Origin: Methyloceanibacter marginalis
Lineage (GTDB): Bacteria; Pseudomonadota; Alphaproteobacteria; Rhizobiales; Methyloligellaceae
Direction: 5' to 3'
DNA length: 32,725 bases
Assembly (NCBI RefSeq): GCF_001723295.1
Contig: NZ_LPWD01000464.1
Location: 1 to 32,725 of the forward strand
This document shows positions 24,988-26,652 of the stretch, in pieces; the stretch's first letter is position 1; every line of letters begins with the position of its first letter. Below the pieces are notes generated by a model. The model was not told the DNA's origin. It did no database searches and saw nothing but the letters and a program-made list of their open reading frames with translations. Position numbers and translations under genes: made by a program.

Positions 24988-25185
24988 TCAGTTGTTGCGA
25001 GAGCGCTCCTCTTCGCGGATGGCCGCCTCGTGATAAGAGGCGCCGCCACAGGCGACCTTTGCGATGCGCGGCATCACAAAGCTCTCGGCGAGGTGCGTCT
25101 CGTTGCGACCGCTACTCAATCCGGCGCGGCCGCCTTTGGGGAACTGGTAGATCTTGGCCGTCCCCTCAGTTGCGTTTGCCGTCAT
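24988..25185 (-). CDS. DUF2735 protein, divergent from glnII
   Basis: 65 residues. I choose ATG 25185 because GGAGAG lies 5 bases upstream. ATG 25197 would add four residues but lacks such a site. The core TAKIYQFPKGGRAGL is the DUF2735 signature. The middle (SFVMPRIAKVACGGASYHEAAI) is a likely helix and the tail is charged. The family is small, of unknown function, and in rhizobia is typically found beside glnII, as here. This suggests a role linked to nitrogen status. A strong terminator follows. Confidence 0.85.
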   Translation of the reverse strand: MTANATEGTAKIYQFPKGGRAGLSSGRNETHLAESFVMPRIAKVACGGASYHEAAIREEERSRNN

Positions 25186-25273
25186 GGTTCTCTCCATTCA
25201 GTCATTCCGTGTGTCGAAGACTCAGCGCATCAACACAGCTTGAGTTCCCCTATACATGGGAGCTGCGGCGCCG

Positions 25274-25292
25274 TGCACAATAAATTTGCGCA
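25274..25292. promoter_or_regulatory. Imperfect palindrome, possible NtrC-type enhancer site
   Basis: TGCACAATAAATTTGCGCA: TGC.CAA on the left mirrors TTG.GCA on the right. It lies about 220 bp upstream of the sigma-54 promoter, a usual enhancer distance. Known NtrC sites have a TGCAC-N7-GTGCA form of 17 bp. This one is 19 bp, so the assignment is tentative. Confidence 0.35.
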
Positions 25293-25509
25293 ATGACTAT
25301 TATTTCAGCCGTTTAGCCGGCTGATGCTTCGCTTTGCAGTCTCGCCCGAGAGCGCGGTGAGCGCCCCTGTTGACTTGCGACCGGGATTGGCAGGAGGGCA
25401 GCGGCGCGCGCTAACCCCCGCTGTTTATTACCAAAAAATGAACGCTCGTTTCTGAGGAGACCGCTCGGTCGGTCGCCAGCGCACGCTCGGGTGAGGGCAT
25501 TCATCTCGT

Positions 25510-25525
25510 TGGCACAATTGCTGCT
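25510..25525 (+). promoter_or_regulatory. Sigma-54 (-24/-12) promoter of glnII
   Basis: TGGCACAATTGCTGCT matches the TGGCAC-N5-TTGCW consensus at every position except one T, with the invariant GG and GC at the required spacing. Transcription should begin near 25535, leaving a leader of about 80 bases before the glnII ATG. Rhizobial glnII genes are known to be RpoN/NtrC-controlled, which agrees with this. Confidence 0.8.
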
Positions 25526-25614
25526 TCGCAAAAACGGTTTTGGCCGTCACGCACAGGCGGCCCGGATGGGTACCTCCACACGTTTTTGCCTCAACACCAC
25601 ATGAAGGATTCGCA

Positions 25615-26652
25615 ATGACCAAGTACAAACTCGAGTACATTTGGCTCGACGGTTACACGCCGACGCCGAATCTGCGTGGAAAGACTCAGATCAAAGAATA
25701 CGGAAGCTTTCCGACACTCGAGGATCTTCCCCTCTGGGGCTTCGACGGCAGCTCGACGATGCAGGCGGAAGGCAGCAGCTCGGATTGTGTTCTGAAGCCG
25801 GTCCGTGTTTTCCCCGACGCGGCACGCAAGGATGGCGCTCTGGTGCTTTGCGAGGTCATGATGCCGGACGGCGAGACCCCGCACCCGACCAACAAGCGCG
25901 CAACGATTCTGGACGACGACGGCGCCTGGTTCGGCTTCGAGCAAGAGTACTTCTTCTACAAAGACGGCCGCCCGCTCGGGTTTCCGGCGGATGGCTACCC
26001 GGCGCCGCAAGGCAAATACTACACGGGCGTTGGCTACGCGCAGGTCGGTTCGATTTCACGCGAGATCGTCGAGGAGCATCTCGACCTGTGTCTCGCGGCC
26101 GGCATCAATCACGAGGGCATCAACGCCGAGGTGGCGAAAGGTCAGTGGGAATTCCAGATCTTCGGCAAGGGTTCGAAGAAGGCGGCCGACGAAATGTGGA
26201 TGGCCCGCTACCTGCTGGAACGTCTCACCGAGAAATACGGCGTCGATGTCGAGTATCATTGCAAGCCGCTCGGCGACACGGACTGGAACGGCTCGGGCAT
26301 GCACGCCAACTTCTCCACGACGTATCTGCGTGAAGTCGGCGGCGAGCCGTATTTCCTGGCCCTGATGGACGCGTTCGAGGCGGCCTGTGCCGACCACATC
26401 GCAGTCTACGGTCCGGACAACCACATGCGGCTGACCGGCAAGCACGAGACCCAGGCGATCGACCAGTTCAGCTGGGGTATCGCCGACCGTGGCGCGTCGA
26501 TCCGGGTGCCGCACTCGTTCCCCCGGAACGGCTACAAGGGCTATCTCGAGGATCGCCGGCCGAACAGCCAAGGCGACCCCTACCAGATCGCCTCGCAGAT
26601 TTTGAAGACGGTTGCCTCCGTCGACACGGCGAAGGCCAGCGCCGCCGCATAG
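25615..26652 (+). CDS. glnII: Glutamine synthetase type II
   Basis: Ammonia assimilation: glutamate + NH3 + ATP to glutamine. 345 residues, the compact eukaryote-like GSII form rather than the 470-residue GlnA. I choose ATG 25615 (AAGGATT upstream), which opens MTKYKLEYIWLDGY. Motifs: beta-grasp WGFDGSSTMQAEGSSSDC, HPTNKRA, metal-binding GFEQEYFFY and GINAEVAKGQWEFQIF, ammonia/glutamate site NGSGMHANFST, and ATP-binding RLTGKHET. GSII lacks the adenylylation site, so control is mainly transcriptional, fitting the sigma-54 promoter in front. A strong terminator follows. Confidence 0.96.
   Translation: MTKYKLEYIWLDGYTPTPNLRGKTQIKEYGSFPTLEDLPLWGFDGSSTMQAEGSSSDCVLKPVRVFPDAARKDGALVLCEVMMPDGETPHPTNKRATILDDDGAWFGFEQEYFFYKDGRPLGFPADGYPAPQGKYYTGVGYAQVGSISREIVEEHLDLCLAAGINHEGINAEVAKGQWEFQIFGKGSKKAADEMWMARYLLERLTEKYGVDVEYHCKPLGDTDWNGSGMHANFSTTYLREVGGEPYFLALMDAFEAACADHIAVYGPDNHMRLTGKHETQAIDQFSWGIADRGASIRVPHSFPRNGYKGYLEDRRPNSQGDPYQIASQILKTVASVDTAKASAAA

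Follow-up and report, generated by a model that had tools for sequence, protein, structure and literature searches.

In the window, i.e. the whole analysed stretch of 32,725 nucleotides of Methyloceanibacter marginalis DNA, the divergently oriented genes gstI and glnII probably share one control region, in which a single array of NtrC sites would serve both of them: NtrC would activate glnII through a sigma-54 promoter and repress gstI, whose product would act as a brake on translation. The switch is real and mostly known; the points that most merit further study are the fixed distance between the NtrC-type sites and gstI, and the missing sigma-54 element in Hyphomicrobium and Filomicrobium. 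The proposed arrangement offers an account, open to testing, of why gstI and glnII are regulated in opposite directions.

The gene opposite glnII (positions 24988–25185, minus strand; 65 codons and a stop) encodes a protein of 65 residues that matches PF10931 (DUF2735) with 57.1 bits (cut-off 25). Comparison with relatives indicated that translation starts more likely at 25185 than at 25197, the position 12 bases earlier given in the list of open reading frames. Pfam lists the function of this family as unknown, and our literature search found no paper using the word DUF2735. The small open reading frame divergent from glnII on pSymB of S. meliloti 1021 is itself a PF10931 member (72.4 bits, 61 residues), and DUF2735 is annotated at the corresponding position beside glnII in S. 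medicae and Rhizobium rhododendri. The divergent gstI-glnII pair of Rhizobium leguminosarum and Sinorhizobium meliloti was reportedly described by Spinosa (2000) and Napolitani (2004). According to the accessible parts of the S. meliloti literature (PMC8829014, PMC3596328), gstI adjoins glnII divergently and its product is an inhibitor of the translation of glutamine synthetase II (GSII). The statement of the initial annotation that DUF2735 has no known function is thus outdated, since gstI occupies the corresponding position in S. meliloti. The DUF2735 protein of the window is very probably GstI, the described inhibitor of GSII translation; GstI is equated with PF10931 on the basis of position and family match at the S. 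meliloti locus. The window protein shares 20–49% identity with 36 aligned relatives (21% with the protein of S. meliloti 4H41), and a tblastn search with it against plasmids gave no match at 1e-3. Its AlphaFold model, based on 37 sequences (mean pLDDT 66.7, pTM 0.24), contains a single long C-terminal helix.

Among 397 genomes of the order searched, PF10931 was detected in 93, all of which also encode GlnII (93/93), and the family is thereby given a likely role. In 88 of these 93 genomes, that of the window included, gstI and glnII stand next to each other in divergent orientation, with 336–658 bp between the matched parts. The remaining five genomes all belong to genus g83 (family f42); four of them have gstI and glnII on different contigs, and the fifth has gstI behind glnII in the same orientation. 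Three genomes, G135 and G399 of genus g83 among them, encode GlnII but gave no match to PF10931, and the GlnII of one of the three has a different N-terminus.

The protein encoded by glnII itself (25615–26652, plus strand) shows 82.8% identity to that of the pSymB copy of S. meliloti 1021. It matched the profile NF041605 with 369.8 bits, i.e. below the curated cut-off of 500; this cut-off was passed by none of the 397 genomes of the order, 96 of which scored above 350 bits, with the next best value being 61. We call the gene GlnII on the basis of this distinct group, the absence of any genome passing the cut-off and the identity to the pSymB copy.

The sigma-54 consensus is TGGCAC-N5-TTGC, with GG at -24 and GC at -12. 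The initial annotation had placed a near-consensus -24/-12 element about 90 bases before glnII, and this claim was borne out. The element TGGCACAATTGCTGCT (25510–25525, plus strand) ends 89 bases upstream of the glnII ATG (25615) and, compared with TGGCAC-N5-TTGCW, has the correct GG/GC spacing and a single deviation (C for T at -15). With a scoring matrix made from this consensus (maximum 18.2, threshold 12) it reached 16.3, and a score of at least 16 was seen in only 0.06% of dinucleotide-shuffled intergenic regions. The -12 C is at 25524, which predicts a transcription start at 25536. The pattern TGGCACNNNNNYTGCW was not enriched genome-wide (5 occurrences in the 3.0-Mb genome, with the reversed control pattern occurring 12 times); the case for a sigma-54 element rests on placement and conservation. 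Judged in this way, the sigma-54 promoter of glnII is a well-supported prediction. In the accessible part of an S. meliloti start-site map (PMC3616915), glnII is given as RpoN-dependent, yet no start was detected for it.

An element scoring at least 12 was found on the glnII strand in 77 of the 88 intergenic regions that separate DUF2735 and glnII in the order, its -12 C being located 78–151 nt from the glnII ATG. By comparison, this score was reached in 2.7% of shuffled regions and, on the opposite strand (facing gstI), in 2/88 regions, i.e. a gstI-facing element was absent from most of them. The genomes come from one order and are mutually related, so that the counts do not represent independent events. 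The 11 regions below 12 are those of 10 genomes of family f2 and of G110. We also examined 80 fetched named loci, 77 of which had enough upstream sequence (at least three genomes are common to this set and that of the 88 regions). A score of 12 was reached in 73/77, in 72 of these within 160 nt of glnII; the four loci below it are from Hyphomicrobium (two) and Filomicrobium (two). An upstream gstI was detected in 61/77 named loci, and none was found within 2.5 kb in the other 16. Loci of this kind were scanned over 450 nt, and all 16 carry the element before glnII, which indicates that gstI is not required and counts against the model favoured below. The rpoN gene was found in 27/27 genomes tested (the window's genome and 12 f2 genomes among them), and NtrC above the TIGR01818 cut-off in 22/22 (the window's genome and 10 f2 genomes included), in each case with the GAFTGA motif, also in the window's genome.

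The initial annotation had also reported an imperfect dyad about 220 bp further upstream. A 19-bp dyad, TGCACAATAAATTTGCGCA, is indeed present at 25274–25292, 217 bp upstream of the sigma-54 element. Conservation, however, supports a 17-bp register (TGC-N11-GC) and not the 19-bp dyad: TGCAYAANANANNNGC is conserved in 10/10 aligned sequences (the window and nine family relatives), while the outer GCA of the dyad is not conserved among the same ten. We designated the conserved 17-bp stretch, TGCACAATAAATTTGCG (TGC-N11-GCG; 25274–25290, no strand assigned), site A. With an NtrC-type score of 9.4, it is borderline when taken alone, since the 95% shuffle quantile is 10.3 and the best site reaches about 9.4 in one of ten shuffled regions. 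Site B, TGACTATTATTTCAGCC (25294–25310, no strand assigned), begins 20 bp after site A, and its centre is 116 bp away from the start of gstI; it is weak in the window (5.7), and the equivalent position scores 8.4–10.9 in 6/9 relatives. A degenerate third site (C), TGATGCTTCGCTTTGCA (25322–25338, no strand assigned), is marked by alignment position only; it has no TGC in the window, and its counterpart is TGC-N11-GCA in 8/9 relatives. Site A overlaps the -35 of a gstI core promoter predicted by eye on the minus strand (25249–25280), with TTGTGC at 25275–25280 and a weak -10 at approximately 25249–25257. In the family alignment, also inspected by eye, CTATAT occurs 17 bp from TTGTGC or TTATGC in 5/9 relatives. 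A simple sigma-70 scan of the window did not report this core promoter.

In the accessible part of a study of S. meliloti NfeR1 (PMC10746234), TGC-N11-GCA is named as an NtrC motif of both activated and repressed promoters, rhizobial glnII promoters being among those activated. This motif was present in 75 of the 88 gstI/glnII regions versus 22 expected. For scoring, we used an NtrC matrix trained on other genes, i.e. 15 distinct sites upstream of P-II genes in two families, f1 and f2; it was supplied by 18 of 30 loci, which had been read in the correct direction, and the 12 reverse-strand loci contributed none. The best site passed the 95% shuffle level in 71/88 regions and did not do so in 17/88. 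It was centred 55–150 bp from the gstI start in 71/88 regions (19.4 expected under random placement), and a site scoring at least 7 was centred 105–117 bp from gstI in 45/88 regions of 9 of the 11 families, versus 0.9 in shuffles. When the distance was counted from glnII the sites were spread, with 24/88 in the fullest 13-bp bin. The NtrC-type sites thus keep a fixed distance to gstI and much less so to glnII.

The five g83 genomes with uncoupled genes are informative in this respect. In all of them the top-scoring site of the 400 nt preceding gstI has its centre at 114–116 bp, a location that fits sites serving gstI itself; the scores are clear in three (11.9, 11.9 and 12.4) and weak in two (7.6 and 4.6). 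The glnII genes of these genomes retain the sigma-54 element in 5/5 cases (15.0–18.2), and the three genomes with a clear gstI site have a separate NtrC-type site at 218–221 bp of glnII. The palindrome of the window is accordingly better read as a predicted NtrC site belonging with gstI than as an enhancer of glnII only; these sites could also be recognised by NtrX or a different regulator. Inspection by eye suggests that the sites of families f34, f16 and f35 lie upstream of the gstI core promoter and not over it, so that occlusion may not be general.

In the model that we favour, NtrC activated at low nitrogen would bind the TGC-N11-GCA-type array at the gstI end of the region and, from there, activate transcription by sigma-54 polymerase from the remote promoter of glnII. 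The same NtrC, bound directly on or beside the sigma-70 promoter of gstI, would turn this gene off, in the window possibly by occlusion. At high nitrogen there would be little glnII transcription, gstI would be on, and GstI would block translation of the residual glnII mRNA. Transcript changes published for S. meliloti agree with such a scheme. In the accessible part of one study, low nitrogen at sufficient phosphate raised glnII 28-fold and lowered gstI four-fold; in that of a second study, gstI of the wild type was 3-fold lower on low nitrogen (P 0.07), and gstI also fell in a glnB glnK mutant. In a glnD mutant on low nitrogen, the drop in gstI (2.6-fold, P 0.1) and the rise in glnII both persisted, and the authors proposed an additional regulatory mechanism; this response counts against our scheme. 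The excerpts of the gstI and NtrC literature that our search covered describe no experiment that tested NtrC directly at gstI, and one may exist in print.

The palindromes might instead constitute an enhancer of glnII only, in which case gstI would be under indirect repression or that of a different regulator, and the nearness of the sites to gstI would be incidental. NtrC enhancers are usually located upstream of sigma-54 promoters, which counts in favour of this reading, as does the persisting nitrogen response of both genes in the S. meliloti glnD mutant, for which the accessible text suggests another mechanism. However, it is the distance to gstI that is conserved and that to glnII far less so; a clear gstI site persists in three of the five uncoupled genomes, and the glnII genes of these three have a site of their own; and 10/10 f2 genomes keep a site scoring at least 12 where the sigma-54 element is missing. 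On this balance we consider an enhancer dedicated to glnII unlikely.

The initial annotation suggested that both genes may respond to nitrogen limitation; much less probable is the reading of this idea in which both are induced, with DUF2735 as a nitrogen-stress gene. A nitrogen response of both genes is plausible, given their common control region with NtrC-type sites, but the same direction of response is not supported: the two transcripts change in opposite directions in the accessible S. meliloti data, and a sigma-54 element faces gstI in only 2/88 regions. It is hardly credible that the sigma-54-like and palindromic matches arose by chance and that an ordinary promoter drives glnII. The lack of genome-wide enrichment of the 16-bp pattern would permit this, and a sigma-70-like match (9 of 12) was found at 25274–25303 on the plus strand; nevertheless, the sigma-54 element is kept at one place in 77/88 regions, whereas only one of nine aligned relatives has the -10 portion of this sigma-70-like sequence.

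The favoured model, i.e. one NtrC array acting on both genes, would take a particular form in the group where the sigma-54 element is missing. Four Hyphomicrobium/Filomicrobium loci (L235, L252, L259 and L302) and the 10 f2 genomes carry gstI and an NtrC-type site, and have no recognisable sigma-54 element before glnII; the NtrC-type site is weak in L259 (8.7) and scores at least 12 in all 10 f2 genomes. Relaxing the spacer to 4–6 bases revealed no convincing element in the 10 f2 genomes, in G110 or in three further Hyphomicrobium/Filomicrobium loci, the best scores being 10.2 (G408, 422 nt from glnII) and 10.1 (L252, 98 nt, with a 4-base spacer). One f2 genome is identical to a named Hyphomicrobium locus, and Hyphomicrobium and Filomicrobium both belong to the Hyphomicrobiaceae; from this single match we infer that the whole of f2 represents this family. 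The f2 genomes encode rpoN (12/12) and ntrC (10/10 tested), and sigma-54 elements scoring 13.1 precede the P-II genes of two of them (G339 and G112). The loss thus seems to be confined to the glnII element, with the system as such being kept.

Hyphomicrobium and Filomicrobium may therefore represent a natural case in which glnII has seemingly lost its sigma-54 element and the gene of the translational brake has been retained. We tentatively suggest, as a possibility that falls short of being the likelier outcome, that a single NtrC array with a fixed position relative to the gstI promoter constitutes a two-way switch, repressing gstI and enhancing glnII, and that nitrogen control of GSII in these genera operates mainly through NtrC repression of gstI, i.e. 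at the level of translation. Two loci of Filomicrobium MAG_Ve_Sed_36 disagree: a sigma-54 element is present in L272, together with a site resembling that of the window's family, and L259 lacks the element, which may mean that this MAG bin is mixed.

The predicted 5' leader of glnII, with its start deduced from the -12 element, comprises 79 nt (25536–25614, plus strand). Folding places a stem near its 5' end (25542–25548 with 25556–25562, plus strand), and a Shine-Dalgarno-like AAGGA is located at 25604–25608 on the same strand. A conserved RNA element in this leader was considered and rejected: the 5' stem could be aligned in 9/10 family members (G023 excluded) with almost no compensatory change. 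A GCRTCA box precedes the Shine-Dalgarno sequence, within the last 50 nt before glnII, in 25 of the 40 regions of families f16, f34 and f35; overall, it occurs in 26/88 regions (1.8 expected), and in 0/10 members of the window's family. Another motif, TGGCACGNNNNTTGAC, recurs approximately 77–105 nt before the P-II genes of L201, L203, L204, L207, L208, L210, L213, L222 and L227. It is -24/-12-like, and its -12 part, TTGAC, resembles a sigma-70 -35, so that the two promoters perhaps overlap.

The closest precedent for NtrC acting as a repressor at such sites is NfeR1 of S. meliloti, for which TGC-N11-GCA is reported as the NtrC site of a repressed promoter in the accessible part of the study (PMC10746234). 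The repressed gene in that case is an sRNA with no sigma-54 signature, whereas the array of the window would also serve a sigma-54 gene. Moreover, NtrC is reported there to repress NfeR1 regardless of phosphorylation and most strongly under nitrogen surplus, in contrast to the low-nitrogen repression proposed for gstI, and this mode of action, like the glnD response, counts against our scheme. The locus resembles the gstI-glnII pair of R. leguminosarum and S. meliloti in combining a small divergent PF10931 gene with a sigma-54 element before glnII. S. meliloti also has a TGC-N11-GCG site near gstI, TGCACATGATTTACGCG, which starts 53 bp from this gene in strain 4H41 and has identical letters in strain 1021. 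The window differs from the S. meliloti pair in its distant GstI (the above-mentioned 21% identity to 4H41) as well as in the glnII leader and the Shine-Dalgarno region. Enteric glnA combines distant NtrC sites with a -24/-12 promoter, as does the window; to our knowledge, it has no translation inhibitor gene on the opposite side, unlike the locus described here.
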